A stretch of 64,000 nucleotides of DNA, from NCBI RefSeq assembly GCF_035994945.1, contig NZ_CP108677.1, positions 2,170,001 to 2,234,000 of the forward strand, read 5' to 3'. The position numbers and the translations under genes are program-made. Position 1 is the stretch's first letter, and each line of letters begins with the position of its first letter. Positions 18,488-50,474 of this stretch are shown piece after piece. The notes below the pieces were generated by a model that had not been told where the DNA came from, did no database searches, and saw only the letters and a list, made by a program, of their open reading frames with translations. The stretch comes from Streptomyces sp. NBC_01216 (GTDB lineage: Bacteria > Actinomycetota > Actinomycetes > Streptomycetales > Streptomycetaceae).

Positions 18488-18631
18488 CTACTCGCCGGTC
18501 AGCTCGCCCGTCCAGCAGATGCAGGTGCCGGGCTGGTACTGCTCGAAGGCCGCTGCGCCGAAGTCCTCGATGACCAGGTCCTCGACGACGGGGGCGGTGG
18601 TGGCGGCGGTGGTGGTGACGTTGAGGTTCAT
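18488..18631 (-). CDS. Azole-RiPP precursor peptide
   Basis: 47 residues from ATG 18631, with GGAAGGG eight bases upstream; a longer frame to 18745 lacks a ribosome site. The leader is Thr/Ala- then acid-rich (APVVEDLVIEDFGAAAFEQ) and the C-terminal part is YQPGTCICWTGELTGE. The core (roughly TCICWTGELTGE) has two Cys and three Thr, the residues converted to thiazoles and methyloxazoles, plus one Trp and a repeated TGE. It is directly upstream of the YcaO and SagB genes on the same strand and is followed by no gene before YcaO. The product resembles no TOMM core I can name (not plantazolicin, goadsporin, bottromycin or streptolysin S). The leader/core boundary is unknown. Confidence 0.8.
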   Translation of the reverse strand: MNLNVTTTAATTAPVVEDLVIEDFGAAAFEQYQPGTCICWTGELTGE

Positions 18632-18757: not shown

Positions 18758-20083
18758 TCACTTCCCCTCCCCGGTGGTCGGTCCGTCCGCCATGCCGGCG
18801 GTCAGGGTGGTGCCGTCGACGGGGTCGACGAGCAGGAAGGACCCGGTGCGCCGGAAGTCGGCGTAGCCGTCCAGGGCGATCGGCTCGGCGGTGCGCAGCA
18901 CGACGCGGCCGATGTCGTTCATGCGGAGCGTGTCGGTGCCCGGTCGCTCCGAGAGGTCCTCCAGGTCGAGCCGCGAGGAGATCTCGGCGACGACGGCCCG
19001 GACGGTGCGGGTGGTGTGCCGGAGCAGCACCTGCCGTCCGGCGAACAGCGGCTGGTCGCCCAGGTGACAGACGGTGGCGGTCAGCCGCCGGACGGCACGG
19101 GGCGCGCCGGCGGCGGGGGCGATGAGGTCGCCGCGGGCGATGTCCAGGTCGTCGGCGAGACGTACGGTCACCGACTGGGGTGCCCAGGCGGTGTCGGTGG
19201 TGGCGCCGTCCAGGGTGTCGATGGCGGCTACGGTGCTGGCCCCGCCGGAGGGCAGGACGGTGATCCGGTCGCCGACCCGCAGTACACCGGAGGTGATCTG
19301 GCCGGCGTAGCCGCGGTAGTCGGGGTGGGCGGCGGTCTGCGGACGGATCACGTACTGGACGGGCAGGCGGGCCGCCTCGGTGCGCGGATCGGCACCGACG
19401 GGGACCGACTCCAGGTGTTCGAGGACGGTGGGTCCGGCGTACCAGTCCATGCGCTCGGAGGGGCGGACGACGTTGTCGCCGGCGAGGGCCGAGATGGGGA
19501 TGGCGGTCACCCGCTCGATGCCGAGTGCGTCCGCACAGGCGGAGAACGCGGCGGCGGTGCGGGCGAACACCTCCTCGGAGCAGTCCACCAGGTCCATCTT
19601 GTTGACGACGAGGGTCACATGACGGATCCGCAGGAGTGCGGCGACGGCAAGGTGGCGGCGGGTTTGTTCGACGACGCCGTTGCGGGCGTCGACGAGGACG
19701 AGGGCGAGGTCGGCGGTGGAGGCGCCGGTGACCATGTTGCGGGTGTACTGCACGTGGCCGGGGGTGTCGGCGAGGATGAAGCGGCGTCGGCTGGTGGCGA
19801 AGTAGCGGTAGGCCACGTCGATGGTGATGCCCTGCTCGCGTTCGGCGCGCAGGCCGTCGGTGAGCAGTGCGAGGTCGGGGGTTTCCTGGCCGCGGGAGCG
19901 GGAGGCGTGTTCGACGGCTTCGAGCTGGTCGGTGAGGACCGATTTGGAGTCGTGGAGCAGGCGGCCGACGAGGGTGGACTTGCCGTCGTCGACGGAGCCG
20001 GCGGTCGCGAGGCGCAGGGTGTCGGCGGCGGTGCGGGGGCCGCTCGCGCGGGGGGCGCCGGTGGGCGCTTCGGTGATGTTCAC
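18758..20083 (-). CDS. cysN: Sulfate adenylyltransferase large subunit (GTPase, CysN)
   Basis: 441 residues from GTG 20083. A translation-factor-like GTPase domain shows G1 AGSVDDGKSTL, G2/G3 DTPGHVQYTRNM and G4 NKMDLVD, followed by EF-Tu-like beta-barrel domains (RPQTAAHPDYRGYAGQITSG). CysN uses GTP to drive CysD formation of adenosine 5'-phosphosulfate from sulfate and ATP. It is encoded two bases after cysD. No sulfite or APS reductase is nearby, and cysC and a sulfotransferase gene are upstream, so this copy probably feeds sulfation rather than cysteine synthesis. Confidence 0.93.
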   Translation of the reverse strand: MNITEAPTGAPRASGPRTAADTLRLATAGSVDDGKSTLVGRLLHDSKSVLTDQLEAVEHASRSRGQETPDLALLTDGLRAEREQGITIDVAYRYFATSRRRFILADTPGHVQYTRNMVTGASTADLALVLVDARNGVVEQTRRHLAVAALLRIRHVTLVVNKMDLVDCSEEVFARTAAAFSACADALGIERVTAIPISALAGDNVVRPSERMDWYAGPTVLEHLESVPVGADPRTEAARLPVQYVIRPQTAAHPDYRGYAGQITSGVLRVGDRITVLPSGGASTVAAIDTLDGATTDTAWAPQSVTVRLADDLDIARGDLIAPAAGAPRAVRRLTATVCHLGDQPLFAGRQVLLRHTTRTVRAVVAEISSRLDLEDLSERPGTDTLRMNDIGRVVLRTAEPIALDGYADFRRTGSFLLVDPVDGTTLTAGMADGPTTGEGK

Positions 20084-20085
20084 GG

Positions 20086-21045
20086 TTAGAAGTACCCTTC
20101 GCGTTTGCGGTCTTCCATCGCGGCCTCGGACATCTTGTCGTCGGCGCGGGTGGCGCCGCGTTCGGTGAGGCGGGAGGCGGCGATCTCGGCGATCACGGCC
20201 TCGACGGTGGTGGCGTCGGAGTCGACGGCGCCGGTGCAGGACATGTCTCCGACGGTGCGGTAGCGCACCAGCCGCTTCTCCACCCGCTCGCCGTCCCTCG
20301 GACCGCCCCACGCTCCGGGGGCCAGCCACATCCCGTCACGGGCGAAGACCTCCCGCTCGTGCGCGAAGTAGATCCGGGGCAGGGCGATGTCCTCGCGCTG
20401 GATGTACTGCCACACGTCCAGCTCGGTCCAGTTCGACAACGGGAACACCCGCACGTGCTCACCCGGCGCGTGCCGCCCGTTGTACAGCTGCCACAGCTCG
20501 GGCCGCTGACGACGCGGGTCCCACTGCGAGAACTCGTCGCGCAGGGAGAACACCCGCTCCTTGGCCCGCGCCTTCTCCTCGTCACGCCGGCCGCCACCGA
20601 ACACCGCGTCGAACCGGTGCTGACGGATCGCCTCCGTCAACGGCACCGTCTGCAACGGGTTACGCGTCCCGTCCGGGCGCTCCCGCAACCGGCCGTCGTC
20701 GATGTAGTCCTGCACGGAGGCGACATACAACCGCAGCCCGTGCGCGGCGACCGTCCGGTCCCGGTACTCCAGCACCTCGGGAAAGTTGTGCCCGGTGTCC
20801 ACATGCAGCAACGTGAACGGCACCGGCGCCGGCGCGAACGCCTTCAACGCCAGATGCAGCATCACGATCGAGTCCTTACCACCGGAGAACAGGATCACCG
20901 GCCGCTCGAACTCACCCGCCACCTCACGGAAGATGTGCACCGCCTCCGACTCGACCGTGTCGAGATGGGAGAGCCCGAAGGCGTCGCCGGTGTGGACGGT
21001 GGGCAGCGACGGGGCTGCGAACGGGGTGACCGTCGTGGCGGTCAT
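20086..21045 (-). CDS. cysD: Sulfate adenylyltransferase small subunit (CysD)
   Basis: 319 residues, the normal family length. The PP-loop ATP-pyrophosphatase motif SGGKDSIVMLHLA is at about residue 54, with FGGGRRDEEKARAKERVFS and the terminal DRKREGYF typical of CysD. With CysN it makes APS in the cytosol. It is transcribed after cysC, in a row with the sulfotransferase gene, consistent with a PAPS-supplying module for natural-product sulfation. Confidence 0.95.
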   Translation of the reverse strand: MTATTVTPFAAPSLPTVHTGDAFGLSHLDTVESEAVHIFREVAGEFERPVILFSGGKDSIVMLHLALKAFAPAPVPFTLLHVDTGHNFPEVLEYRDRTVAAHGLRLYVASVQDYIDDGRLRERPDGTRNPLQTVPLTEAIRQHRFDAVFGGGRRDEEKARAKERVFSLRDEFSQWDPRRQRPELWQLYNGRHAPGEHVRVFPLSNWTELDVWQYIQREDIALPRIYFAHEREVFARDGMWLAPGAWGGPRDGERVEKRLVRYRTVGDMSCTGAVDSDATTVEAVIAEIAASRLTERGATRADDKMSEAAMEDRKREGYF

Positions 21046-21085: not shown

Positions 21086-21694
21086 TCACAGCAGCCCCCT
21101 GGCGGAGAGCAGGACGAGCAGCTCCTGCGCGGAATCGGTGACGGTCTGGGTATGGGAGCGGACCCTCAGATCGGGATCGCGCGGCTCCTCGTAGGGGTCG
21201 TCGACACCGGTCAGGCCGCTGATCTCGCCGGCGGCCTGGCGGGCGTACAGTCCCTTGACGTCGCGCCGGGCGCACACCGACAGCGGGGCGGCGACATGGA
21301 CCTCCAGGAAGGCGGTGCCGCTGTCGCGGTGCCAGGAGCGGACCAGGTCGCGGGACTCCGCATAGGGCGCGATGACCGGCACCAGGACCGTGATGCCGTT
21401 GCGGGCCAGGACCTGGGCGACCCGGCCGATGCGCTCGACGTTGCGGTGCCGGTCGGCGCGGGTGTATCCGAGGCCGGCCGAGAAGGTCCGGCGCAGTTCG
21501 TCGCCGTCGAGGACCTCCACCCGTCGGCCGCGGGCGCGCAGCAGGTCGGCGGTGGCGTTCGCGAGCGTGGTCTTGCCCGCGCTGGGCAGGCCGGTGAGCC
21601 AGAGGGTCGATCCGGGGTAGCAGGTGCAGTGCGTGGAGGGGGCCGCGAGGTCGTGCGCGGGGGCGGCCGTCAGGACGGTCACATCGAGCTCCAT
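21086..21694 (-). CDS. cysC: Adenylylsulfate kinase (CysC)
   Basis: 202 residues from ATG 21694. Walker A is GLPSAGKTT at about 35-43, and FSAGLGYTRADRHRNVERIG and VKGLYARQAAGEISGLTGVDDPYE are APS-kinase signatures. It phosphorylates APS to PAPS, the sulfate donor for the sulfotransferase encoded four genes upstream. Its start lies inside the end of the upstream kinase/peptidase gene (16-base overlap), so translation is probably coupled. Confidence 0.95.
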   Translation of the reverse strand: MELDVTVLTAAPAHDLAAPSTHCTCYPGSTLWLTGLPSAGKTTLANATADLLRARGRRVEVLDGDELRRTFSAGLGYTRADRHRNVERIGRVAQVLARNGITVLVPVIAPYAESRDLVRSWHRDSGTAFLEVHVAAPLSVCARRDVKGLYARQAAGEISGLTGVDDPYEEPRDPDLRVRSHTQTVTDSAQELLVLLSARGLL

Positions 21695-23535
21695 TCTCGG
21701 ACGGCGGCGGTCAGCAGACGCTGGGCGCGCCGGAACTCGTCCGCGTGCAGGTGTTCGTCGGGGGTGTGGTCGAGCCTGGCGTCGCCGGGGCCGTAGGCGA
21801 CCATGGGCACGCCGCGCCAGGTGGTGGCCAGCGTGTTCATGTCGCTGCTGCCCTTCTTCATGAGGTAGCGGGGTGTCACGCCCTCCTCGGAGAAAGCCCG
21901 TTGGAACGCCTTGACGAGCGGGCTGGTGCGTCGGGTGGTGACCCCGGGGGTGGCCCGCAGGACGTCGGCGCGGACCGGTCCCGAGGCGAGGGCGCGCAGG
22001 GCTGCGACGGTCTCGTCCGGGTCGAGGCCCGGGGGGACGCGGACGTCCACGACGGCCTCGCCGGACTGGGTGTCGCCCTGGTTGAGGGCGCTGACGCCGA
22101 GGACGGCGGTCAGGGCGTCCGGGTGGAGGGCCGCGACGGCGGCCGGGACCTTGGAGAGCACGTCGACCATGCGGTCGCCCGCGGTACGGACGCCTTCGCC
22201 GGCCGTGTGCCCGGTGGGTTCCCGCACGCTGAAGCGGACCTTGACCAGACCGTAGTAGCCGAGGGTGAGGGCCTCCGCGCCGCTGGGCTCGCCGACGACG
22301 ACCGCGTCGGCCGGGTAGGCGTCGCGGACGTGGAAGGCGCCGGCGCCGGTGATCTCCTCCTCCACCGCGCCGACCACGCGCAGTTCCACGCCTTCGGGCG
22401 GGTCGTAGGAGGCCAGGGTCTGGAGGTACGTCACCAGGCTGCCCTTGGCGTCCACCGATCCGCGTCCGGAGAGCACCTCGCCGTCCCAGCGGACCGGCCA
22501 GCGGTGCGGGACGGTGTCCAGGTGGCCGAGCATCAGCAGCCGGCGGGAGCCCGCTCCCTTGGTGGCGACCAGGTTGTTCGCGGCGTCGATCTCGGCCTTG
22601 ACGCCGTGGTCCGCGCACCATTCGGCGAGGAACTCGGCGATCTCCCGCTCGTCCCGGGAGACCGAGGACAGTTCCACGGTGCGGGCCAGCAGATCGAGGT
22701 CGGGGGCCGGGGCGGGTGCCCGCCAGAACCAGGTGGCGCCCGCCGCGGACAGCGTGTGCGGTCCGGTGATCGCGGTGTCCGAGGTGCCCCTCAGGGCGAT
22801 CTCGGCGGCGCGTACCTTCTGCCGCATGCGGCCCTTGGCGTAGCGGCGGCCCTCGCCCTCGGTGAGGTGGCGCAGGCTGCTGGCGGGGTCGGCCGGGTCG
22901 GTGAGCAGTCCGGCGGTGCCGGTGACCAGCCGGAGGTGGTCGGCGTCCAGGGCCAGGGCCGCCTCGGCGGCGAGTACGTCGGCGTCGACGTTGAGCGGGG
23001 TGCCGCCTTCGGCGTCGGCGACCGGCGGGGAGAGGCAGACGACGTCGAAGGTGGACAGCAGGCCGGTGAGCCGGGGGACGTCGACGGAGCTGACCGTGCC
23101 GGCGCGGTGGTCCCGCACGAGCCGGGTCCGGCCGTCCTCCCGGACCCGCAACGGACCGTTGACGGTGGCCTTGACGAGGGCTCCGGTACGGGCGACCGCC
23201 GCGAAGACGGACAGTCCGCGCCTGGTGAGCTCCTCCTCCACCAGGGGCAGGGTGACCTCTTCGTACGCGGCGACGATGTGGCGCATCTCCGACGGGGGGC
23301 AGTAGCGGATCTCGTCGCCGTTGCGGGAGACCAGGGTGCGGATCTCGCGGCCGGTGCGCCGGTAGTGCTCGGCGATGCCGGCCGCTCCCCCGGCGATGAC
23401 GAGCAGCCGCGCGCCGCGCCGGCTGAGTTCGAGCAGTTCGTCGAAGACCTGACTGTGGAGCAGCGTGGCGCTGCCCAGCTTGACCACGTACAGCGCGGCC
23501 TCGCGTGAGCTGGCGACTTCCCCGAGGGCTGGCAT
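21679..23535 (-). CDS. Fusion of carrier-protein-dependent kinase (LysZ-like) and M20 peptidase (LysK-like)
   Basis: 618 residues. Residues 1-265 are an amino-acid kinase of the N-acetylglutamate kinase/LysZ type (VVKLGSATLL, VIAGGAAGIAEHY, GGTPLNVDADVLAAEAA, KGRMRQKVRAAEIAL). Residues about 275-618 are an M20 metallopeptidase with the expected zinc ligands (GHLD 337-340, Asp362 in SVDAKG, Glu392-394 in VEEEITG, C-terminal HTPDEH). In LysW systems the kinase activates the side-chain carboxyl of the carrier-bound glutamate, and LysK cuts the finished amino acid off the carrier. Having both in one chain joins an early and the last step. In known LysW pathways they are separate proteins. The carrier itself is at 27817. 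Both sets of key residues appear intact. Confidence 0.85.
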   Translation of the reverse strand: MPALGEVASSREAALYVVKLGSATLLHSQVFDELLELSRRGARLLVIAGGAAGIAEHYRRTGREIRTLVSRNGDEIRYCPPSEMRHIVAAYEEVTLPLVEEELTRRGLSVFAAVARTGALVKATVNGPLRVREDGRTRLVRDHRAGTVSSVDVPRLTGLLSTFDVVCLSPPVADAEGGTPLNVDADVLAAEAALALDADHLRLVTGTAGLLTDPADPASSLRHLTEGEGRRYAKGRMRQKVRAAEIALRGTSDTAITGPHTLSAAGATWFWRAPAPAPDLDLLARTVELSSVSRDEREIAEFLAEWCADHGVKAEIDAANNLVATKGAGSRRLLMLGHLDTVPHRWPVRWDGEVLSGRGSVDAKGSLVTYLQTLASYDPPEGVELRVVGAVEEEITGAGAFHVRDAYPADAVVVGEPSGAEALTLGYYGLVKVRFSVREPTGHTAGEGVRTAGDRMVDVLSKVPAAVAALHPDALTAVLGVSALNQGDTQSGEAVVDVRVPPGLDPDETVAALRALASGPVRADVLRATPGVTTRRTSPLVKAFQRAFSEEGVTPRYLMKKGSSDMNTLATTWRGVPMVAYGPGDARLDHTPDEHLHADEFRRAQRLLTAAVREWSSM

Positions 23536-23608: not shown

Positions 23609-24379
23609 TCAGCCGATGCCGCGGGAGTTGCCCCCGTCCGCGACCAGTACGGCTCCGGTGACGAACCCGGCCTGTTCGGCGGCGAGGAAGGCCACCAGGG
23701 CGCCCAGGTCCTCCGCGCGGCCGATCCGGCCGAGCGGGATCCCGGCCGCGACCTCGGCGAGGCGTTCCTCGACCTCGTCCCCGTACTGCACGTCGAGGAT
23801 CGGGGTGCGGTGGAAGCCGGGCGCGAGGACGTTGACGGTCACCCCCGCCGGTCCGAAGGCGTCGACGAGGCCCCGGGCGAAGCCCAGGACGCCGAGCCTG
23901 GCCACCGAGGACAGCCCGCTGCCCGGGTGGGGCCGGCGCACGGACTCGGAGGTGATCATGACGATCCGTCCCCAGCCGGCCTCCCGCAGGTACGGCGCGG
24001 CGGCCAGCGACAGCGACACATGGGGCAGCAGGTTGCCGTTCACCGCCTCGCGGTACTCGGCGACCTCGAAGCTCTCCACGGGGCCGAAGGGCACCCCGCC
24101 GGAGTTGGTGACCAGTACGTGCAGGGCACCGAACTCCTCGGCGGTGTGCCGGACCCAGCCGGCCGCGGCGTCCTCGTCGCACAGGTCGACGACAGTGCTC
24201 AGCACCCGGCCCGGCCCGCAGGCGTCGACCTCCTTGTGGGCGCGGGCCAGCCGCTCGGGGTCACGGCCGCAGAGGGACACGTCGGCGCCCTCGGCCGCCA
24301 GCGCTCGGGCGATCGCGAGACCGATTCCGCTGCTGGACGCGGCCACCATGGCGGCCCGTCCGGCGAGACCGAGATTCAC
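23609..24379 (-). CDS. Short-chain dehydrogenase/reductase with atypical catalytic residues
   Basis: 256 residues, coupled by ATGA to the sulfotransferase gene. The Rossmann fold is evident (GRAAMVAASSSGIGLAIARAL, DL at the acidic position, TNSGG in place of NNAG) and the C-terminus is FVTGAVLVADGGNS. The usual Tyr-X3-Lys is replaced around PHPGSGLSSVARLGVLGFAR, where Ser and Arg stand at the Tyr and Lys positions, although the Ser of SES is kept. Some FabG-like SDR subfamilies share this loss. It may reduce the ketone left after transketolase extension, or it may be non-catalytic. SDRs recur next to the sulfotransferase in amino-group-carrier clusters as far as I recall. Confidence 0.75.
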   Translation of the reverse strand: MNLGLAGRAAMVAASSSGIGLAIARALAAEGADVSLCGRDPERLARAHKEVDACGPGRVLSTVVDLCDEDAAAGWVRHTAEEFGALHVLVTNSGGVPFGPVESFEVAEYREAVNGNLLPHVSLSLAAAPYLREAGWGRIVMITSESVRRPHPGSGLSSVARLGVLGFARGLVDAFGPAGVTVNVLAPGFHRTPILDVQYGDEVEERLAEVAAGIPLGRIGRAEDLGALVAFLAAEQAGFVTGAVLVADGGNSRGIG

Positions 24380-25416
24380 GTGGCCTCACCCCGCGAGGCG
24401 GCTCCGGTGACGGACGGTTCCGGCCGGCCGGCCGGTGTCGGGGTCCGCCGGGCGTCGGGCGCGTGGCCGGACCGGCCCGCCCGGGGCGGGCGGACGGGGG
24501 CGAGCGGGTAGCCGTAGCGGCTCAGCAGCGGGGCCGCCGCCGCCGTGGCCGCGGCGATGTCCGCGCCGGGCAGCGCGGTGCGCCAGCGTTCGTCGGGCCT
24601 GATCCGGGTGACGCCGCGGCGCAGCCGGTCCGGGTTGCCCGTGACGGTGTGGTTGGCGCCGAGCGGGATCCGGCCGTCGGCGTCCACCGGGGACGCGTCG
24701 TCGAGGCCGGCGAAGCGCAGGACCCGGGCCGTCACCTCGCGCGGGCCGCGCGCCAGATCCTCGTGCCGGACCCGCAGATAGCGCGGGCCGGCGGTCCGCC
24801 CGACGAGCTCGGAGGCGAGGTTGAACGCGGTCCAGTAGCCGCTGCTGCGGGCCGGGGACATGGGGTCGATGTAGTCCTTGGCGCTGCGGTAGGACAGGGC
24901 GGTGGCGCGCGGGTCGCGCACGATGTGCAGGACCCGGACGTCCAGGTCCCGCCGGCCGAGGAGGGCGGCGGCCTCCGCCGGGTACTTGGAACCGTCCACG
25001 ATGAGCCGGTCGCCGCCGAGCGCGGCGACCTGCCGGTAGACGGACGCCGAGTGGTCCAGGAGTTCGGTCACACCGGGGGCGGTGGGCCGTTCGCCGCGTG
25101 CCTCGGCGAGTCGCGCCGGGGTGTGCCGGGTACGCAGCAGCGCCTGCTGGAGGACGGCGATCCGGTGCGCGGTGGCCTCGGTCGGGGCTTCGGGCAGCGC
25201 CGCGAGGACCCCGGACCAGAGCGGGCACGCGAGGACGGGCTGTCCGCAGCCGCAGACGGAGTTGGTGCCGGCGCCGAGCACGCCGTTGCGCCACAGGTAG
25301 TACAGCTCTCCGACGTGCCGGACGCCGGGAAGCTCGTTGAGGACGTTGCCGAGCAGGGTGCTGCCGCTGCGCATCCATCCGGTGATGTAGAGGACGCGCG
25401 GGGAGGGGCCTGTCAT
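24376..25416 (-). CDS. PAPS-dependent sulfotransferase with disordered C-terminal tail
   Basis: 346 residues. The 5'-phosphosulfate loop is GWMRSGSTLLGNVL (13-26) and the 3'-phosphate site is VRDPRATALSYRSAK (166-180). Cys55, 57 and 64 in CGCGQPVLACPLW may form a metal site or disulfide. It transfers sulfate from PAPS to a hydroxyl; in vazabitide- and azinomycin-type pathways a sulfated hydroxyl on a carrier-derived amino acid becomes the leaving group for aziridine closure. Here no Vzb10/11 (AziU3/U2)-type ring-closing gene was recognised in the window, so the sulfate may stay. Residues 308-346 are Pro/Arg/Gly/Ser-rich and look disordered, a possible shell-targeting segment given the capsid-like gene 71 bases upstream. 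Confidence 0.85.
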   Translation of the reverse strand: MTGPSPRVLYITGWMRSGSTLLGNVLNELPGVRHVGELYYLWRNGVLGAGTNSVCGCGQPVLACPLWSGVLAALPEAPTEATAHRIAVLQQALLRTRHTPARLAEARGERPTAPGVTELLDHSASVYRQVAALGGDRLIVDGSKYPAEAAALLGRRDLDVRVLHIVRDPRATALSYRSAKDYIDPMSPARSSGYWTAFNLASELVGRTAGPRYLRVRHEDLARGPREVTARVLRFAGLDDASPVDADGRIPLGANHTVTGNPDRLRRGVTRIRPDERWRTALPGADIAAATAAAAPLLSRYGYPLAPVRPPRAGRSGHAPDARRTPTPAGRPEPSVTGAASRGEAT

Positions 25417-25487: not shown

Positions 25488-26381
25488 TCAGTCGCGGGTC
25501 AGCAGCAGGAAGTGCTGCGGCAGGTGGACGGCGAGACCGATCCGGCTGCTCGCCTCGACGAGGTCGGAGCCGTCAGGGCCCGCTCCGCGGAGCAGCGCCA
25601 GCGAGGCGACGCCCGGGACGAGGAGCGTGACGGCGGCCCGGAAGTCGCCGAGCAGGACCTGGCCGCGCGGGATCATGCGGGTGCGCGAGACGGTGATGCC
25701 CGCGGCGCCCAGCTGCCCGAGGACGCCGGCCCGGACGAGCTCCCAGTAGGTGAAGGGGTGGACGACGATCCCGTCGCAGGAGCCGCCGGTCTCCTCGACC
25801 TCGGCGGCGGCCTCGGTGATGGCCGCGTGGACGTCGTCACCGAGCGTGCCGCGGCGGATCTCGGGCAGGTTCAGCAGGCCGGTGACGGTCTTGTCCGCGC
25901 TGCCGTGCAGCAGCGTCTCGTTCTCCACCACGGACAGCCGGACGAGGACGCGGTAGTCGACGAAGGAGGCGAGGAGCGCCGGCTCGTCGAGGAGTCCGGC
26001 GGGCAGCGGCACCCGCACCGTCAGGTCGGTGAGTTCGGCCTGCTCCAGCCGGGGGGCGAACGCGCCTTCCGGGGTGGCCTGGTAGGAGGTCCCGGCGGCG
26101 GCCAGGCGGGCGGCCGGCGGCTCGTGCACGAAGGTCACCGGCGCGTCGGCGACCGAGGCGGTCTTCAGCAGGTGGCGGACCGCGTAGCGGGGGCGGGTCG
26201 CGAACAGCGGGAAGACGGCCGGGAGATGGGCGCGGAAGGGGACCACGTGGTCCTGGCCCGGTCCCGCGGTGCCCACGGACCAGGCGAACTCCTCCCCCGG
26301 GCTGCGGGTGGCCAGGTCCGGGTCCGCGAGCTGTATCCGGACTCCCTGCTGCACGGCGGAATCGGCGGTGGCTGCCAGCAT
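25488..26381 (-). CDS. HK97-fold shell protein, natural-product (family 3-like) encapsulin
   Basis: 297 residues from ATG 26381 (GGGGAGACATC upstream). It matches the pattern of HK97-type major capsid proteins. There is a variable N-terminal arm and E-loop-like region (1-110), then a spine-helix segment (VRVPLPAGLLDEPALLASFV 122-141; RLSVVENETLLHG 148-160), TGLLNLPEI (167-175), a P-domain helix (DDVHAAITEAAAEV 182-195), and DGIVVHPFTYWELV (203-216). The A-domain end follows: RMIPRGQVLLGDFRAAVTL 235-253, with IGLAVHLPQHFLLL at the C-terminus. No portal, terminase or tail genes are near, so this is not a prophage. It is the first gene of the sulfotransferase/SDR/carrier-kinase run. Encapsulins of this kind inside natural-product clusters with sulfotransferases, SDRs and amino-group carriers have been proposed computationally, as I recall (Andreas and Giessen, 2021). 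The fold call is from motif pattern only. Confidence 0.72.
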   Translation of the reverse strand: MLAATADSAVQQGVRIQLADPDLATRSPGEEFAWSVGTAGPGQDHVVPFRAHLPAVFPLFATRPRYAVRHLLKTASVADAPVTFVHEPPAARLAAAGTSYQATPEGAFAPRLEQAELTDLTVRVPLPAGLLDEPALLASFVDYRVLVRLSVVENETLLHGSADKTVTGLLNLPEIRRGTLGDDVHAAITEAAAEVEETGGSCDGIVVHPFTYWELVRAGVLGQLGAAGITVSRTRMIPRGQVLLGDFRAAVTLLVPGVASLALLRGAGPDGSDLVEASSRIGLAVHLPQHFLLLTRD

Positions 26382-26641
26382 GATGTCTCCCCAGGATTTC
26401 GGTGAAATGTTCGGTGGTCATTCACATTAGGCAGCGGCGGCCATCCGGGGGGAGTAAACCGATGGCGCCTTTTTATGGCTCGAATAAGTCGGGGTGATTC
26501 CCCCTTCTTGAGCAGCGCATGCCCGCCGTATGACGATGTCACATCGGGTCCGTGACGCCATCCGTGGCGCGGCCGAAAGAGGCCGCCCTAGGCTGAGCCG
26601 CAGACTTCACGGAACGTCCTTCTGACGATGTGGGTGGGAGA
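26382..26641. promoter_or_regulatory. Divergent promoter region between shell-protein and LysR genes
   Basis: This 260-base region is clearly less GC-rich than its surroundings (CCTTTTTATGGCTCGAATAAG). It holds two short dyads of LysR-box type: ATTTC-N3-GAAAT (26396-26408), just above the shell-gene ribosome site, and CGATGT-C-ACATCG (26534-26546). A GCGGCC/GGCCGC hairpin lies nearer the LysR gene. The layout suggests a LysR protein controlling both its own gene and the divergent 12-kb run. Confidence 0.5.
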
Positions 26642-27631
26642 ATGCATCACGACTTGCAGATAAACAGGCTGCGGACTCTGGTGGCCGTGGTGGAGCTCGG
26701 CGGCTTCCGGCGGGCGGCGGAGTCCCTGCACATCACCCAGCCCGCGGTCAGCCAGCAGATACGCCAGCTGAGCGGTCTCATACGGAGCCCGGTGTTCGCC
26801 TCGACGGGGCGCAACCTGCGGCTCAGCCCGCGGGGCGAGGAGCTCCTGCGGTACGCCCGTCGCATGGTGGCGCTCAACGACGAGGCGGTCGACCGGTTCG
26901 TCCCGCAGTCCGGCCAGATCATGGTGTCGATCGGCGTGACGAGCCAGCTCGGTGAGGTGCTGCCGGAGTTCCTGCGGCTGCTGAACCGGGGCATGCCGCA
27001 GGCCCAGCTGAGCGTACGGACCGGGGCGAGCGAGGAGCTCGAGGCGCAGCTGTCCAGCGGGCAGCTCGACGCGGCGCTGCTGCTCCAGGGCGATCCGTCG
27101 GCCGCCGGCACGCGGAGCCGGGAACTGGGCCGGATGCGGATGGCCTGGTTCGGGCGGCCGGCCCACGGCGAGCGTGACGCGCTGCCCCTGGCACTCTTCC
27201 CCGAACCGTGCACGCTGCGCGGCCGGGTTCGGGAGACGCTCGACGCCTCGGAGGTCGAGTGGCGGGTCGCGTACGAGAGCGGCGAGCTGATCGGCCTGCG
27301 CTCGGCCGCCAAGGCGGGTCTCGGTATGACCTGCCTGATCGCCAACGGGGACGAGCTGTGGGGGCTGACCCCGACGGTGCGTCCCGGCCTTCCGGCGCCA
27401 CCCGGACCGCTGCCGGTGACCATGGCGCTGGCCCACGACGGCCTGCCGGACGAGTTCGTCGCCATCGCGGAGAAGGCGTTCCGACAGGCGCTGCGGGGCT
27501 ACCCGCTGGTCCCGGCGGACGGTGCGGACGGGCCCGGCACCGGGCCGGGGGCCGGTCCGTCCCCGGTGGAGGCGGCCGGACCGCCGGCCGGCGACCCACG
27601 AGGCCCCGCCCTCGCGACGGCCGTGGCCTGA
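26642..27631 (+). CDS. LysR-family transcriptional regulator
   Basis: 329 residues from ATG 26642 (MHHDLQINRL); a GTG at 26630 would add four residues, and neither start has an ideally spaced ribosome site. The N-terminal winged helix is clear (FRRAAESLHITQPAVSQQIRQL), followed by a substrate-binding domain (SIGVTSQLGEVLPEFLRLL, RSAAKAGLGMTCLI). The last 45 residues are a disordered Pro/Gly/Ala tail. It is divergent from the shell/sulfotransferase run and precedes the carrier-protein operon, so it is the best candidate for a pathway-specific activator sensing a pathway metabolite. Confidence 0.88.
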   Translation: MHHDLQINRLRTLVAVVELGGFRRAAESLHITQPAVSQQIRQLSGLIRSPVFASTGRNLRLSPRGEELLRYARRMVALNDEAVDRFVPQSGQIMVSIGVTSQLGEVLPEFLRLLNRGMPQAQLSVRTGASEELEAQLSSGQLDAALLLQGDPSAAGTRSRELGRMRMAWFGRPAHGERDALPLALFPEPCTLRGRVRETLDASEVEWRVAYESGELIGLRSAAKAGLGMTCLIANGDELWGLTPTVRPGLPAPPGPLPVTMALAHDGLPDEFVAIAEKAFRQALRGYPLVPADGADGPGTGPGAGPSPVEAAGPPAGDPRGPALATAVA

Positions 27632-27816: not shown

Positions 27817-27999
27817 ATGCAGGAAACCCTCGTAGCCCCCGCATGCCCGGAATGCGACGCCGAAGTCTCGCTGGGAACGGACGCCCGGGTCAGCGAAATA
27901 GTCGAGTGCCCGGAGTGCCGCCTGGAACTCGAAATCGAGTCCGTCGAGCCGCCGCTTCTGATTCTGGCCCCCGAGGTCGAGGAGGACTGGGGCGAGTAA
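27817..27999 (+). CDS. LysW-type amino-group carrier protein
   Basis: 60 residues. Two CPEC knuckles (Cys10/13 and Cys31/34) form the zinc ribbon of LysW proteins, the body is very acidic (isoelectric point clearly low), and the C-terminus ends VEEDWGE, matching the family's EDWGE whose terminal Glu gamma-carboxyl carries the substrate. LysX attaches the alpha-amino group of an amino acid, usually glutamate, to this Glu. Later enzymes recognise the acidic surface. It heads the operon lysX-lysY-transketolase. In Streptomyces this system is used for secondary metabolites such as vazabitide A and azinomycin rather than lysine. Confidence 0.93.
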   Translation: MQETLVAPACPECDAEVSLGTDARVSEIVECPECRLELEIESVEPPLLILAPEVEEDWGE

Positions 28000-28043: not shown

Positions 28044-28913
28044 ATGAGCTCTGCGGCAGCGCGCCTCGGTGTCCTCGCCTCCCGGGTGCGGTTCGAGGAG
28101 AAGAACATCCTGACCGCGCTGGAGAGGCGCGGCGTCGCTTGCGAACAGATCGACCCCCGCACCCTGTCCGTCCGGGCCGGTACGCCCTGGGACGGCCCGC
28201 AGACCGTGCTCAACCGCGAGGTGGGCCACTACCGGGCGCTCTACGCGGCGTCCGCACTGGAGTCGGCGGGCGTGACGGTGCTCAACACCGCCGCCGCGAC
28301 GGCGGTCTGCGGGGACAAGTGGCAGACCTCGGCGACCCTGGTCGCCCGGGGCCTGCCCACCCCGGAGACCACGCTCGCCCTGACTCCCGAGGCGGCGCTC
28401 AAGGCACTCGAGGAACTGGGCTATCCCGCGGTGATCAAGCCGCTGGTCGGGTCCTGGGGGCGCCTGGTCACCCGCGTCACCGACCGGGCCATGGCCGAGG
28501 CCGTCCTGGAACACCTCGCCGCACTGCCCTCCCCGCAGTCGCACATCGTCTACGTCCAGCGCGAGATCGCCAAGGCGGACCGGGACATCCGGGTCCTCGT
28601 CGTGGGCGGCCGGGCGGTCGGGGCGACGTACCGCAGGAGCGAGGACTGGCGCACCAACGTGGCCAGGGGCGCGGTCAGCGAACGCTGCCCGCTGGAGCCG
28701 GAGCTGACCGCCCTCGCGGTGGCTGCGGCGGACACCGTCGGCGCCACGCTCGCCGGGGTGGACCTCCTGGAGGAGCCGGGCGGCCGGCTCACCGTCCTGG
28801 AGGTCAACGACCGGGTCGAGTTCCGGGGCCTGCAGTCGACGTACGGAACGGACCTCGATGTGGCGGAGACCATCGCCGCCCTCCTGACAGCGAAGGCAGG
28901 GGCACAGTCATGA
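28044..28913 (+). CDS. LysX-like ATP-grasp ligase charging the carrier protein
   Basis: 289 residues from ATG 28044 (AAGGAG upstream). It is a RimK/LysX-family ATP-grasp enzyme. ATP-site segments are TAVCGDKWQTSATLVARGLP, AVIKPLVGSWGRLV and VQREIAKADRDIRVLVVG, and metal ligands are in LTVLEVNDRVEFRGL. It forms the isopeptide bond between the terminal Glu of the carrier and the alpha-amine of glutamate or a related acid. It lies 44 bases after the carrier gene and overlaps lysY by four bases. Confidence 0.92.
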   Translation: MSSAAARLGVLASRVRFEEKNILTALERRGVACEQIDPRTLSVRAGTPWDGPQTVLNREVGHYRALYAASALESAGVTVLNTAAATAVCGDKWQTSATLVARGLPTPETTLALTPEAALKALEELGYPAVIKPLVGSWGRLVTRVTDRAMAEAVLEHLAALPSPQSHIVYVQREIAKADRDIRVLVVGGRAVGATYRRSEDWRTNVARGAVSERCPLEPELTALAVAAADTVGATLAGVDLLEEPGGRLTVLEVNDRVEFRGLQSTYGTDLDVAETIAALLTAKAGAQS

Positions 28914-29935
28914 TCCGCGCAGCAGTGCTGGGAGCGGCCGGCTACATCGGCGGGGAGCTGCTGCGGCTGCTCGTCAACCACCCGCAGGTCGACGTGGTCG
29001 CCGCCACCTCGCGCACCCTCCAGGGACGCCAGATCGACGGCGTCCACCCGAACCTGCGCCACCGCACCAAGCTGGCCTTCTCCTCGGAGGACCAGCTCCC
29101 GCGCTGCGACGTGCTCTTCCTGGCGACCCCGCACCGCGAGACCATGCGCCGGATGCCGGAGTTCCTGGACAGGGCGGGCGTCGTCATCGACCTGTCCGGC
29201 GACTTCCGGCTGCGGGACACCGGCACGTACGAGGACTACTACGGCACACCGCACGAGGCACCCGGGCTCATCCCGACCTTCGTCCAGGGGCTGCCGGAGC
29301 ACCACCGGCAGGCGCTGCGCACCGCGGACCGGATCTCCGTACCCGGCTGCATGGCCGCCGCGGGCATCCTGTCGCTGGTCCCGCTGGCCGAGGCCGGGCT
29401 CATCACCGGGGACATCACCGTGGACGCCCGGACCGGCTCCAGCGGTTCGGGCGCGAAGGCCGGAGCGGAGAACCTGCACGCCGAACGCAGCGGAGCGCTG
29501 CGGGTGTTCGCTCCGACCCGGCACCGGCACGAGGCGGAGATCGCCCAGGCCACCGGCCACACCGTACGGATGTCGGCGACCGGTGTGGAGGCTGTCCGGG
29601 GGGTCCAGCTCCTCAGCCGGGCGACACTGGCCGAGGGGGTCGACGAGCGGGCCATCCGCTCCGCCTACCGGTCCCGCTACGCCGACGAGCCGTTCATGCG
29701 CATCGTCGCGGCGCGGCGCGGACTGCACCGCTTCCCCGACGCCAAGATCCTCTCCGGTTCCAACTTCTGCGACATCGGGTTCGCCCTCGACCGCGGCGCC
29801 GCCACGGTCACCGTGATCGCGGCACTGGACAACCTCGTCAAGGGCGGCGCGGGCAACGCGGTGCAGTGCATGAACGTGCGCTTCGGCGAACCCGAGGAGC
29901 GCGGACTGGAGTTCACCGGCCTGCACCCCAACTGA
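28910..29935 (+). CDS. LysY/ArgC-type reductase
   Basis: 341 residues. The NADPH fold opens AAVLGAAGYIGGELLRLL, the active cysteine is in VPGCMAAAGIL, and the His region is SGAKAGAENLHA. It reduces the acyl phosphate made by the kinase half of the 21679 gene to a carrier-bound semialdehyde. The end (GAGNAVQCMNVRFGEPEERG) is typical of carrier-dependent members rather than of free N-acetylglutamyl-phosphate reductases. Start ATG overlaps the lysX stop. Confidence 0.9.
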   Translation: MIRAAVLGAAGYIGGELLRLLVNHPQVDVVAATSRTLQGRQIDGVHPNLRHRTKLAFSSEDQLPRCDVLFLATPHRETMRRMPEFLDRAGVVIDLSGDFRLRDTGTYEDYYGTPHEAPGLIPTFVQGLPEHHRQALRTADRISVPGCMAAAGILSLVPLAEAGLITGDITVDARTGSSGSGAKAGAENLHAERSGALRVFAPTRHRHEAEIAQATGHTVRMSATGVEAVRGVQLLSRATLAEGVDERAIRSAYRSRYADEPFMRIVAARRGLHRFPDAKILSGSNFCDIGFALDRGAATVTVIAALDNLVKGGAGNAVQCMNVRFGEPEERGLEFTGLHPN

Positions 29936-30054: not shown

Positions 30055-30966
30055 ATGAGCAGCCCACCTCTGCTGCGGGGCGCCCCCGCCCGCACCGACA
30101 TCACCGGCACGGACGTCACCGGCCTCGACGCGCACGGACCCGACACGACGGAGCCGGCCGCCGTCACCCGCCGGATCAGGGAACACATCGTCGCCATGTG
30201 CGCCGGACCCGAGGGCGGCCACCTCGGCGGTTCGATGTCGCTCGTCGAGATCCTGTCCGTCCTCTACTTCCGGGTGATGCGGCACGACCCGCGCTTCCCG
30301 GGCCTGCCCGAGCGCGACGTGCTGCTGCTGAGCAAGGGCCACGGCGGCATCGCCCTGTTCGCGACGCTGTGCGAGGCCGGCTACTTCCCGGCCGAGGTAC
30401 TCGACGAGTACGCCCGGCCCGGCAGCCACTTCATGGCCCACCCGCACCCGGAGATCCCTGGCGTGGAGATCGCCTCCGGCTCGCTCGGCCACGGGCTCGC
30501 ACTCGGGGTCGGCTACGCGCTGGCCAACCGACTCGACGGCTCCGACCGGCGCTCCTTCGTGGTGATGGGCGACGGCGAGCTCCAGGAGGGCTCCGTCTGG
30601 GAGGCCGCCTCGGTCGCCTCCGCACACCGGCTGAACAGCCTCACCGCGATCGTCGACCGCAACGGCCTCCAGATCACCGGCGGCACCGAGAGCGTCAACT
30701 CCCTGGAGCCGCTGGCAGATCGCTGGCGGGCCTTCGGCTGGCGGGTGCTGGAGGCCGACGGGCACGACACCGAGGAGCTCACCCGCGCGCTGACCCTGCC
30801 GGCCGACCCGCAGGCGCCCACCGTGATCATCGCGCACACCGTCAAGGGCAAGGGCGTTCCCTTCGTGGAGGGCCAGGCACGGAGCCACTACGCGCGGCTG
30901 AACGGCCGGCAGCACCTGCGGGCGCTCAACGCGGTCCGCGCCTCGACGGGCGGTGAGCGCCGATGA
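30055..30966 (+). CDS. Transketolase N-terminal (thiamine-diphosphate) subunit
   Basis: 303 residues after GAAAGGA. The ThDP motif is GDGELQEGSVWEAASVASAHRLN-type with the usual GDG(x)26N spacing. LSKGHGGIALFATLCEAGYF and IEIASGSLGHGLALGVG-like segments are conserved. The protein covers only the pyrophosphate domain, as in split archaeal-type transketolases, and the partner follows with an ATGA overlap. In the vazabitide pathway a similar split transketolase moves a two-carbon ketol unit onto the carrier-bound glutamate semialdehyde. That role is inferred here from context. The first 40 residues are a low-complexity extension. Confidence 0.9.
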   Translation: MSSPPLLRGAPARTDITGTDVTGLDAHGPDTTEPAAVTRRIREHIVAMCAGPEGGHLGGSMSLVEILSVLYFRVMRHDPRFPGLPERDVLLLSKGHGGIALFATLCEAGYFPAEVLDEYARPGSHFMAHPHPEIPGVEIASGSLGHGLALGVGYALANRLDGSDRRSFVVMGDGELQEGSVWEAASVASAHRLNSLTAIVDRNGLQITGGTESVNSLEPLADRWRAFGWRVLEADGHDTEELTRALTLPADPQAPTVIIAHTVKGKGVPFVEGQARSHYARLNGRQHLRALNAVRASTGGERR

Positions 30967-31925
30967 GTACGGCCCCCGCCCCCGCCCGCGCCGCCCGCGA
31001 GGTCTACCGCGACACCGTCGCCGAACTCCTGCCCGGCGAGCCGCGCCTGGTCGTCCTGGACAGCGACACCGGACTGTTCGGAGGGGTGGACTTCGGTTCC
31101 GCCGCCGACCGGTACCTCAACCTCGGCATCGCCGAGCACACCCTGATGGGGACGGCCGCCGGCCTGGCCCGCGAAGGCCGCATCCCCCTGGTCAACACCA
31201 TGGCCGCGTTCGCCTCCTCCCGCGCGGTGGAGGCCGTGAAGATCGACATCGCGATGGGGAACCTTCCGGTGCTGATCGCGGCCACCCACTCCGGGGTGTC
31301 GGCCGGGCACCTCGGCCCGACCCACCACGCCCTGGAGGACCTCGCGGTGATGCGGGCGCTGCCCCACATGACCGTGGTGGTCCCCGGCGACGCCGCCGGC
31401 ACCGGGGAACTCCTGCGCCAGGCGCTCACCCTGGGCGGTCCGGTCTACTTCCGGCTCGGCCGGGGCGCCACCCCCGACCTGCCCGCCGGTCCGCCGCTGC
31501 GGCTCGGCAAGGCCCAGCAGCTGCGGCACGGCACGGACGTCACGCTCGCCGCGTGCGGCCCCTACCCGACGCTCGCCGCCCTGGAGGCGGCCGACCTCCT
31601 GGAGTGCGAGGGCATCACGGCGAACGTGCTGCACCTGCACACGGTCAAGCCGCTGGACACCCCGGCGCTGCTCAGCTCGCTGGGCGTCCGCGACACGGTG
31701 ATCACCGTGGAGGAGCACTGGAGCTCCGGCGGGTTCGGCTCGGCGGTCGCCGAGGCGCTCAGCGCCGTGCGTCCGGTGCGGGTGCACCGGATGGCGCTGC
31801 CGGACGAGTTCGTCCCCGTCGCCGGCAGCCAGCGCTATCTGCTCGAACGCGGCGGGGTGAGCGCGCGGGCGATCGCCGAGCGTGCCCGCGACTCGCTCGT
31901 CTCGCGGTCGGGAGGCACCCGTTGA
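30963..31925 (+). CDS. Transketolase C-terminal (pyrimidine-binding) subunit
   Basis: 320 residues. The ThDP-activating Glu is in NLGIAEHTLMGTAAGLA, followed by FASSRAVEAVKIDIAMGNLPV and the C-terminal domain (HTVKPLDTPALLSSL, VITVEEHWSSGGFGSAVAE). With the previous subunit it forms the active heterotetramer. Tight coupling upstream (ATGA) and downstream (TTGA) places it inside the carrier-protein operon. Confidence 0.9.
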   Translation: MSTAPAPARAAREVYRDTVAELLPGEPRLVVLDSDTGLFGGVDFGSAADRYLNLGIAEHTLMGTAAGLAREGRIPLVNTMAAFASSRAVEAVKIDIAMGNLPVLIAATHSGVSAGHLGPTHHALEDLAVMRALPHMTVVVPGDAAGTGELLRQALTLGGPVYFRLGRGATPDLPAGPPLRLGKAQQLRHGTDVTLAACGPYPTLAALEAADLLECEGITANVLHLHTVKPLDTPALLSSLGVRDTVITVEEHWSSGGFGSAVAEALSAVRPVRVHRMALPDEFVPVAGSQRYLLERGGVSARAIAERARDSLVSRSGGTR

Positions 31926-33562
31926 CCGCCGCCGACGCCTATCGCGCCGCCGGCTGGTGGCGGGACGAGACGGTCCTGCACGACCTGCGCCGCTGGGCCC
32001 GGGAAAGGCCGGACCGGGCCGCCCTGGTCTGCTACCGGGGCACCGCCCACGAGTCGGTGAGCTACGCCGAACTGGCCCGCCGCGTCGACCGGCTCGCGGT
32101 CGGTCTGCTCCGCCTCGGGGTACGCCGCGGCGACGTGGTGACCCTGCAACTGCCCAACTCCTGGGAGCTGGTGGCGCTCTGCCTGGCCGCCGCCCGGGTC
32201 GGCGCGGTCCCGGGCCCGGTGGTCCCGGTCATGCGCCGCCGCGAGGTGGAGTTCATGACCCGGCTCACCGCGAGCCCCGTCTACATCGGCGCCTCTCAGA
32301 CGCGCGGCTTCTCCTACGGGGAGATGAGCGCGGAGGTCGCCGGCGCCGTCCCCACCCTGCGCCACCGGGTGCTGCTGGGGGCGAGCACCGAGGACCTGGC
32401 CGGCGGCGCCCTGGACTTCGGGCGTGATCTCTACGCGCCGGAACCCGATCCGGAGCTGCTCGCCTCCCTGGACGCGATCGAGGCCGGGCCCGACGACGCC
32501 GGGCAGATCATGTTCACCTCGGGGACCACGGGAGAACCCAAGGGCGTCGTGCACAGCCACAACACGCTGTACTCGATGAACCGCGCGCAGGCCGACGTCC
32601 TCGGTCTGACCGGTGACGAGGTCACCGCCATGGGCTCGCCGACCACCCACCAGGCCGGTTTCACCTGGAACTTCGTGATGCCTCTGCTCCTCGGCGCGAC
32701 CGCCGTGCAGGTGGACCGCTGGGACCCGCGGCTGATGCTGCGCACGCTCCAGGAGCAGCGGGTGACGTTCTTCATGGGCGCCCCCACCTTCCTTTCGGAC
32801 CTGATCGACGCCCAGCGCGAGACCCCGCACGACCTCTCGGCGCTGCGCAGCTTCGCCACCGGCAGCGCGCCGATAGCGCCGCTGCTCGTGGAGGACGCCC
32901 GTGAGGTGCTCGGCTGCCGGGTCTACGCGCTGTGGGGCATGACCGAGAACGGCTGCGTCACCGTCACCCGGCCCGGACAGCCGGTGCTGCGCGCCGCCGA
33001 GAGCGACGGCACGCCCGTGCCCGGCATGGAGGTGCGGATCGTCGGGCGGAACGGCGAGCCGGTGGAGCCGGGTACGGCCGGGCTGCTCCAGGTGCGCGGC
33101 TCCGCCCAGTGCCTGGGCTACTTCCGGCGCCACGCGGTGTACGACGCCTGCGTCACCGCCGACGGCTGGTTCGACACCGGGGACCTGGCCCGGGACGACG
33201 GTCACGGCGGGATACGGATCACCGGCCGCGTCAAGGACGTGATCATGCGCGGCGCCGAGAACATCCCGGTCGTGGAGGTCGAGGGGGCCCTGCTGCGCCA
33301 TCGCGCGGTCAAGGACGTCGCGGTGGTCGGTTACCCGGACGCCCGGCTCGGTGAACGCGCCTGCGCCTTCCTCGTCACCCAGGGCGCCGCCCCCGGCCTG
33401 GAGGACGTCCGAGCCCATCTGGCCGGACTCGGCATGGCCCGTACGTACTGGCCCGAGCGGCTGGAACTGGTGCCGGCCCTGCCGCGCACCCCCTCCGGAA
33501 AGATCCAGAAATTCGCGCTCCGGGACCGGCTCCGGGCCCAGGAAGGACGCACGGCCTCATGA
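31922..33562 (+). CDS. Acyl-CoA synthetase / AMP ligase, cyclohexanecarboxylate-CoA ligase type
   Basis: 546 residues from TTG 31922, overlapping the transketolase stop. ANL motifs are present: FTSGTTGEPKGVVHSH (A3), YALWGMTENG (A5), GWFDTGDLARDDGHGGIRI (A7), GRVKDVIMRGAENIPVVEVE (A8) and PRTPSGKIQKFALR with the catalytic Lys (A10). It activates a carboxylic acid as acyl-AMP and then CoA thioester. No carrier domain is attached. It is coupled to the acyl-CoA dehydrogenase gene. The substrate may be the released amino acid or a separate acyl building block. Confidence 0.88.
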   Translation: MTAADAYRAAGWWRDETVLHDLRRWARERPDRAALVCYRGTAHESVSYAELARRVDRLAVGLLRLGVRRGDVVTLQLPNSWELVALCLAAARVGAVPGPVVPVMRRREVEFMTRLTASPVYIGASQTRGFSYGEMSAEVAGAVPTLRHRVLLGASTEDLAGGALDFGRDLYAPEPDPELLASLDAIEAGPDDAGQIMFTSGTTGEPKGVVHSHNTLYSMNRAQADVLGLTGDEVTAMGSPTTHQAGFTWNFVMPLLLGATAVQVDRWDPRLMLRTLQEQRVTFFMGAPTFLSDLIDAQRETPHDLSALRSFATGSAPIAPLLVEDAREVLGCRVYALWGMTENGCVTVTRPGQPVLRAAESDGTPVPGMEVRIVGRNGEPVEPGTAGLLQVRGSAQCLGYFRRHAVYDACVTADGWFDTGDLARDDGHGGIRITGRVKDVIMRGAENIPVVEVEGALLRHRAVKDVAVVGYPDARLGERACAFLVTQGAAPGLEDVRAHLAGLGMARTYWPERLELVPALPRTPSGKIQKFALRDRLRAQEGRTAS

Positions 33563-34722
33563 ACGACACCTTCGCCTCCCAGGACGCCTTCACCCCCCGC
33601 CAGGAAGAACTGGCCAAGCGGATCGAGGAGTTCGCCGCCGAGAAGATCGCGCCGCACCGTCAGGAGAACGACCGGCGCGGGGCGTACCGCCCGGGGCTGA
33701 TCGAGGACCTGGCCGCGGCCGACCTGTTCGCGCTGCGGGTGCCGCCCGAGTACGGCGGCCTCGGTCTGGACGCCGTGAGCGCCGGCATCGCCCTGGAGAA
33801 GCTGGCGGCGGCCGACCTGTCGGTCTGCTTCCCGGTGCTGAACGCCGCGCTGATCGGCGGGGTGCTCGCCTCGCACGGGGACGCGGCCCAGCTGGAGCGC
33901 TGGCTGCCGCCGATCGCCCGCGGCGAGGCGGTGGTGGCGCTCGCGCTGACCGAGGCGGGGCACGGCACGGACGCGGCGGGCATCGAGATGCGCGCCGAGC
34001 CCGACGGCGACGGCTGGGTACTCACCGGCGAGAAGACCTCGATCATGGTGACGGCCTACGCCACGCACGCGCTGGTGTTCGCGCGCACCGGCGGCGAGGG
34101 CGCGCACGGCATCAGCGCCTTCTACGTGCCGCTGGACGGCGACCGGGTCCGCAAGGAGCGGCTGACCGACCTCGGCTGCCGCTCCGGCGGACGTGGCCGG
34201 CTGGTCTTCGACGGCCTGCGGGCCGGGCCGGAGGACCTGGTCGGGGCGCCCGGTGGCGGCTTCGCCGCGGTGATGCGCGGCTTCGCGGTCTCCCGGGCGT
34301 ACATCGCGCTGATGGCGATAGCCGTCGGGAACGCGGCTCTGGCGGAGGCGTATACGCACGCGACCGGGCGGACCGCGTTCGGGCAGCCGATCAGCCGCTA
34401 CCAGTCGGTCGTGTTCCCGCTCGTGGAGCACACCACGCTGCTGCACGCGGCGCGGCTCGTGTCCTTCGAGGCGCTGGGCAAGTCGGACCGCGGCGAGGAC
34501 CCGCGGGTCCCGTCGAACATGGCCAAGTGGTGGGCCCCGAAGGCGGCCGTGGAGGCCGTGCACCAGGCACTGCTGACCATGGGTCACCTGGGCTGGAGCG
34601 AGGACGGACCGGTCGCCCAGCGACTGCGGGACGTCATCGGGCTGCAGCTCGCGGACGGCACCGCGGCGGCCACCAAGCTGACGGTGGCGCGGCTGCTGCT
34701 CGGCAAGGAGCACGCGCCGTGA
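33559..34722 (+). CDS. Acyl-CoA dehydrogenase
   Basis: 387 residues, ATGA overlap with the ligase. Family features are VVALALTEAGHGTDAAG, the FAD-site region RTAFGQPISRYQSVVFPLVEH, and a C-terminal Glu in WSEDGPVAQRLRDV that could be the catalytic base. It would desaturate the alpha-beta bond of the CoA thioester made by the preceding ligase, transferring electrons from FAD to ETF. Last gene of the plus-strand operon. Activity on a carrier-protein-bound or aminoacyl substrate is also possible, as ACAD homologues in natural-product pathways do this. Confidence 0.88.
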   Translation: MNDTFASQDAFTPRQEELAKRIEEFAAEKIAPHRQENDRRGAYRPGLIEDLAAADLFALRVPPEYGGLGLDAVSAGIALEKLAAADLSVCFPVLNAALIGGVLASHGDAAQLERWLPPIARGEAVVALALTEAGHGTDAAGIEMRAEPDGDGWVLTGEKTSIMVTAYATHALVFARTGGEGAHGISAFYVPLDGDRVRKERLTDLGCRSGGRGRLVFDGLRAGPEDLVGAPGGGFAAVMRGFAVSRAYIALMAIAVGNAALAEAYTHATGRTAFGQPISRYQSVVFPLVEHTTLLHAARLVSFEALGKSDRGEDPRVPSNMAKWWAPKAAVEAVHQALLTMGHLGWSEDGPVAQRLRDVIGLQLADGTAAATKLTVARLLLGKEHAP

Positions 34723-36982: not shown

Positions 36983-37001
36983 GTCCCCGCTGTCGATGCC
37001 G

Positions 37002-50468: not shown

Positions 50469-50474
50469 GGCGGT

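Follow-up and report, generated by a model that had tools for sequence, protein, structure and literature searches.

A predicted family 3 encapsulin gene and its sulfotransferase-containing gene neighbourhood in Streptomyces sp. NBC_01216

Family 3 (natural product) encapsulins were described by Andreas and Giessen (2021; PMC8346489). In that survey, their role was given as not known and no structure as solved at that time, sulfotransferase/SDR pairs and carrier proteins were noted, and a possible sequestering of aldehyde or ketone intermediates was raised. The survey presents the chloromyxamide cluster of Myxococcus sp. MCy10608 as the one family 3 cluster with experimental work behind it, and gives its unit as 6-chloromethyl-5-methoxypipecolate. 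For azinomycin, a review (PMC9570651) sets out a transketolase step, an aminotransferase, sulfation, and then loss of the sulfate to give the aziridine. Open-access PMC was searched by titles and abstract starts (a scope leaving subscription journals and bioRxiv uncovered), and no post-2021 paper on family 3 function beyond PMC8346489 was returned. The locus compared with these systems here lies in a 64,000-nucleotide stretch of Streptomyces sp. NBC_01216 (the window). As described for family 3 encapsulins in PMC8346489, it is an actinobacterial biosynthetic cluster with sulfotransferase, SDR and amino-group carrier protein neighbours; beyond that standard it holds a cysC/cysD/cysN cassette and an adjacent TOMM RiPP cluster, both also found in close Streptomyces relatives.

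The shell gene (25488..26381, minus strand, 297 aa) was scored against NF041188, the NCBIfam model of family 3 encapsulins, and reached 354 bits (cut-off 180); the family 1 encapsulin model PF04454 gave 14.6 bits, below its gathering cut-off of 24.3. Structure prediction with AF2 returned a confident HK97 fold over residues 25-297. A search of the PDB with the sequence found no family 3 structure, with a phage capsid as top match (E 0.0044), and a genome-wide search with the shell model gave this single match in the genome. From sequence models and the predicted fold, the gene almost certainly encodes a family 3 encapsulin, a domesticated HK97-type capsid protein, and by analogy with its family and fold the protein would be expected to form an icosahedral shell by self-assembly. 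It is a further member of the family described in 2021 and named by NCBI, not a new kind. The initial annotation had proposed an HK97-type capsid fold from the order of segments and, more loosely, a family 3 encapsulin in a biosynthetic cluster; the structure prediction and the HMM search that it called for both came out in its favour, and the class is that of PMC8346489.

The shell gene was also said to lead a run with a sulfotransferase, an SDR and a carrier-protein kinase/peptidase, and this run was found on the minus strand in the order shell, sulfotransferase, SDR, kinase/M20-hydrolase fusion, CysC, CysD, CysN. The PAPS-type sulfotransferase (24376..25416, 346 aa) matched PF13469 at 44.7 bits (cut-off 27), and its RxGST-type and RDPRA-type motifs were kept in the alignment of relatives. 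It is followed by an SDR-family protein (23609..24379; PF13561, 151.6 bits) and by a LysW-type carrier-protein kinase fused to an M20 [LysW]-amino acid hydrolase (21679..23535; PF00696 and PF01546; TIGR01902 281 bits, cut-off 163). Kinase and hydrolase were read as one chain also in relatives (19 rows) and as separate proteins in others, e.g., L015-L017 and L038. The cysC gene (adenylylsulfate kinase, 21086..21682; TIGR00455 186 bits, cut-off 138.7; PF01583 181 bits) overlaps the stop of the fusion gene and was found by a genome search for APS kinase (TIGR00455 match at G000:C1:2191116-2191613). With cysD (sulfate adenylyltransferase small subunit, 20086..21045; TIGR02039 460 bits, cut-off 396.6) and cysN (large subunit, 18758..20089, start approximate; TIGR02034 532 bits, cut-off 336) it makes a complete sulfate-activation cassette within the shell operon.

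Classical SDRs carry the Tyr and Lys of a YxxxK motif. The window SDR and 51 orthologues have SxxxR where YxxxK is expected (52 aligned members, read by eye, a count that leaves out the unrelated SDR of L050, 31%), so that the usual idea of ketone reduction may fail for this protein. The same replacement was seen in alignments to solved relatives such as 1o5i, 2z1n and 5va8, and it thus marks an SDR subfamily.

Divergent from the shell gene, a plus-strand run opens with a LysR-type regulator (26630..27631; PF03466, PF00126). An amino-group carrier protein of 60 residues follows (27817..27999; called from its open reading frame and translation, LysW-like by eye, ending in EEDWGE); its orthologues adjoin LysX in relatives. 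A LysX-type carrier-protein ligase (28044..28913) matched TIGR00768 at 238 bits (cut-off 143.4) and TIGR02144 at 265 bits (below the cut-off of 275.6), and an ArgC/LysY-type phosphate reductase (28910..29935) matched TIGR01850 at 339 bits (cut-off 233.6). A transketolase is split into an N-terminal half (30055..30966; PF00456) and a C-terminal half (30963..31925; PF02779, PF02780). An acyl-CoA ligase (31907..33562, start approximate) was nearest cyclohexanecarboxylate-CoA ligase (TIGR03208, 532 bits, below the cut-off of 792), and an acyl-CoA dehydrogenase (33559..34722; PF00441/PF02771) was nearest cyclohexanecarboxyl-CoA dehydrogenase (TIGR03207, 317 bits, below the cut-off of 575). Cyclohexanecarboxylate, the substrate type of these nearest models, is a ring acid with a shape like pipecolate. 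An MFS transporter (35513..36982; PF07690, 163.7 bits) comes next, and the open reading frame at 36996-38315 had no Pfam match and no PDB match.

On this gene content and the published azinomycin/vazabitide route, the carrier-protein pathway would take glutamate to the semialdehyde, and the transketolase would add two carbons to give a carrier-bound C7 amino keto acid. CysC, CysD and CysN would supply PAPS, and the sulfotransferase would sulfate a hydroxyl of the C7 unit. ArgD-family aminotransferases gave 12 matches in the genome and none in the window, and tblastn with the genome's own ArgD (this family only) found nothing in the window or in the 64 related loci fetched below. Since no ArgD-like aminotransferase lies nearby, the free amine may cyclise onto the ketone, giving pipecolate instead of DADH; an ArgD copy elsewhere in the genome could serve the cluster. 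Ring closure to a hydroxylated 6-hydroxymethyl-pipecolate, which would have the carbon count of the chloromyxamide unit, is suggested tentatively from the genes present, with 5-hydroxy-6-hydroxymethyl-pipecolate as a plausible specific form. The comparison as a whole predicts a C7 sulfated intermediate, probably of pipecolate type.

The aziridine-forming enzymes of the azinomycin/vazabitide-type DADH/aziridine pathway are of AziU3/U2 type. With that pathway the window shares the carrier protein, ligase, kinase, reductase and split transketolase, and also a hydrolase and a sulfotransferase; unlike it, the window and the 64 other loci lack an ArgD-family aminotransferase, and the window cluster has a shell gene. 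The likeness to the chloromyxamide cluster lies in the family 3 shell gene and in a proposed unit with seven skeleton carbons, oxygenated at C5 and with a functional CH2 at position 6. Unlike the window cluster, the chloromyxamide cluster is myxobacterial, and it was compared by its description in PMC8346489 only. Some of the pathway idea may already have been published among the pathways proposed in supplementary figures S8-S12 of PMC8346489.

Related loci were collected by two routes. Named genomes were scanned by tblastn, giving 53 loci fetched with flanks of up to 10 kb (HMM score not used). HMM searches placed the shell family over cut-off in 15/392 Streptomyces genomes (the window's own genome among the 15) and in 2/396 genomes across the phylum, and added 11 loci, with L096-L099 and L102 dropped as lying on the same contigs as earlier loci. 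The total was 64 loci besides the window. One of them, L109, has its shell gene split over two frames with pieces below cut-off; its sulfotransferase and transporter genes are still recognisable. Four hand-picked phage-like hits below the shell-model cut-off (L111-L114) were used as contrast.

A sulfotransferase was present in the fetched stretch of all 64 other loci (one with a broken shell gene), and module genes were found near none of the four contrast loci. The sulfotransferase was of the window type in 57/64, with a partial match in one frame in L053, and belonged to another Pfam family, Sulfotransfer_5, in the remaining seven (L103-L109; Pfam was run on L108 and L105, and the other five were called by homology). 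A window-type sulfotransferase and SDR at every locus was considered and rejected, as L103-L109 gave no match to the window-type query; they carry the Sulfotransfer_5 protein and an aldo/keto reductase (AKR) instead of the window types. The sulfotransferase lay immediately beside the shell gene, in the same orientation, in 53/64 loci (47 downstream, 6 upstream); of the other 11, eight had it further off on the same strand (the broken L109 included) and three on the opposite strand. In the window's genome (7.7 Mb), these two sulfotransferase families were over cut-off at three places including this cluster; the chance of meeting one in a random 20-kb stretch is thus about 0.8%, a rate drawn from one genome and two families only. 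Because the loci share ancestry, 64/64 amounts to far fewer than 64 independent events, and the use of two sulfotransferase families is a stronger argument than the count. In the reverse direction, the window sulfotransferase was matched at E <= 1e-20 in 5/150 Streptomyces genomes, four of which have the shell gene; for the fifth (G508, 36-39% identity) no shell match was listed, and nothing else from the query set matched within 20 kb.

The backbone genes of the 64 loci were of five types: a carrier protein with transketolase (35/64); an aspartate kinase with an ADH-synthase-like aldolase (5/64); a transaldolase (5/64; Pfam TAL_FSA in L044 and L050); a DegT-type aminotransferase (8/64; Pfam in L045); and an adenylation-thiolation-reductase (A-T-R) protein with an aldo/keto reductase (7/64; Pfam in L108). 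Two further loci were partial (carrier protein or transketolase only) and two had none of these types. The aldolase of L040 scored 301 bits against NF005556 (cut-off 241), 267 bits against TIGR01949 (below the cut-off of 299) and 350 bits against the BagB/FevI model (below the cut-off of 500). A C7 amino keto acid would be within reach of each of the first three types (5+2, 4+3 and 4+3 carbons, the transaldolase acceptor being guessed). A C7 unit at every locus was unsupported: it fits 45/64 (35 + 5 + 5), and no C7 route was found within the flanks of the eight DegT-type and seven A-T-R-type loci.

Pairwise divergences were compared on the same 31 loci, in which all eight genes were present. 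Shell divergence correlated with that of the sulfotransferase (0.94), SDR (0.94) and CoA ligase (0.87), and with LysX, LysY and both transketolase halves at only 0.51-0.60; these last four correlated among themselves at 0.95-0.98. Bootstrapping over loci placed the correlation difference at 0.22 to 0.48. Without restriction to shared loci the pattern was the same, except that acyl-CoA dehydrogenase was intermediate (0.80 with the shell, 0.75-0.80 with backbone genes). By this measure the shell shares its history more closely with the sulfation and CoA genes than with those of the backbone. Relative to the 2021 survey, the comparison adds the constancy of sulfation over two enzyme families, the separate histories of the modules, the cysC/cysD/cysN cassette and the atypical SDR site; the open-access PMC searches listed no paper devoted to these points. 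In place of the whole cluster, it leaves a small module in which to look for cargo, made up of the sulfotransferase, the SDR or AKR and the CoA ligase.

As the likeliest role of the shell, at just short of an even chance, we propose that it is the partner of the sulfation step, holding the sulfotransferase and SDR inside or arranging them. The sulfate ester, which is a leaving group next to an amine, would then be formed and used inside the shell, away from the cytoplasm, and the shell would perhaps confine this reactive ester. A shell around amino acid sulfation or another step had been raised in the initial annotation; the gene company and the co-divergence speak for sulfation only indirectly, and no shared C-terminal cargo signal was found. 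A conserved C-terminal cargo tail on the sulfotransferase was rejected, as an extension occurs only in some Streptomyces loci: L005-L008 end in a PLWPGELW-like stretch after a disordered linker, but the ends are different in the window, L002 and L004, only a few residues are left in L003, and in most of the remaining loci the protein finishes at or close to its core. The PLWPGELW-like end in L005-L008 is a possible clade-specific docking tail. The SDR stops at its core in 29 rows, with no shared tail, and in up to 30 chosen loci of the 53 no shared C-terminal tail was found on the SDR, M20 hydrolase, kinase, CysD or CysN, nor on acyl-CoA dehydrogenase, CoA ligase, the transketolase halves, LysY or LysX. 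Of the 47 loci in which the sulfotransferase follows the shell gene directly, 34 have at most 45 bp between the shell match and the start of the sulfotransferase match, so that an N-terminal extension would have hardly any space. No orthologous SDR or AKR was found in the five transaldolase-class loci, nor in L049, where the contig ends early.

A wider form of the sulfation reading, which we hold to be rather doubtful, takes family 3 encapsulins as a mobile module for sulfo-activation, combined with five or more kinds of backbone pathway. The shell would move together with the sulfotransferase and a reductase-like partner and would confine the sulfate ester, and loss of the sulfate would yield an alkylating unit (of chloromethyl or aziridine type, on a pipecolate ring). 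If true, a compartment of viral origin would serve a step of secondary metabolism that is toxic to the producer itself.

It is also conceivable, at a probability that we put as low but substantial, that the shell is real but takes up a different enzyme of this cluster as cargo, the sulfotransferase being merely a neighbour required in every such pathway. Candidates include the pair of CoA ligase and acyl-CoA dehydrogenase, the AKR or the SDR by itself, and the carrier-protein hydrolase. The co-divergence of CoA ligase with the shell fits such an arrangement, as do its match at E <= 1e-20 in 48/64 loci and the suggestion in PMC8346489 that cargo lies among tailoring enzymes with disordered ends and aldehyde or ketone intermediates. 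At the same threshold, however, CoA ligase was found in none of the five transaldolase-class loci, and acyl-CoA dehydrogenase in none of these five and none of the seven A-T-R-class loci; the carrier-protein enzymes differ from the shell in history, and the missing shared tails count against these enzymes as well.

That the shell encloses no enzyme, and instead stores, sequesters or exports a finished or nearly finished reactive product or serves as an external scaffold, appears quite unlikely. The lack of a C-terminal cargo tail would agree with this, as would, from sequence comparison only, stretches invariant in 45 aligned shell relatives, GGSCDG and RTR among them; small molecules would however be expected to leak through the pores. 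Solved encapsulin shells carry enzyme cargo, and structure titles name EncA with EncD cargo, EncA with the EncB targeting peptide, and a DyP-loaded shell.

It is very improbable that the gene is a phage capsid gene or a remnant of a prophage. The folds nearest the shell model are the phage HK97 and D3 proheads, and tblastn gave distant shell matches in 26 records of Arthrobacter and Gordonia phages, with 24.2% identity for the ten rows that were listed. Against a phage origin, the score lies far over the family 3 cut-off, PHROGs held no match for the shell protein, and the neighbours recur across many species. Identity to the HK97 phage prohead was 19% in the alignment, and no protease, portal, terminase or tail genes were found among the scanned neighbouring proteins, in agreement with the earlier remark that phage genes are missing around the gene. 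An enzyme with an accidental resemblance to a capsid protein, for which the strongly conserved His, Trp and Cys residues in the alignment of shell relatives, unexpected for a plain coat protein, could be cited, is contradicted by the confident HK97 model and has next to no probability.

Several minor observations were made around the cluster. A 2OG-Fe dioxygenase lies just upstream of the carrier protein in L014, L018, L020-L022, L032 and L034 (PF10014 checked in L014), and in that subgroup it could hydroxylate the product. A candidate TOMM-type RiPP precursor of 47 residues (18488-18631, minus strand; leader with VIEDFG, core with TCICWTGE) adjoins a SagD-type YcaO (16121-18391) and a SagB-type dehydrogenase (14459-16090); precursor orthologues were found in L003 and L006-L009, and YcaO in 8/35 carrier-protein loci. 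The TOMM genes and the shell operon may form a joint cluster. A separate aromatic cluster (40232-54777, minus strand) holds an adenylation-PCP protein, DAHP synthase, a KSIII-like enzyme, two chorismate-binding enzymes (one with a GATase domain), an amidohydrolase, a PCP and a ligase, and presumably resembles benzoxazole clusters such as that of nataxazole.
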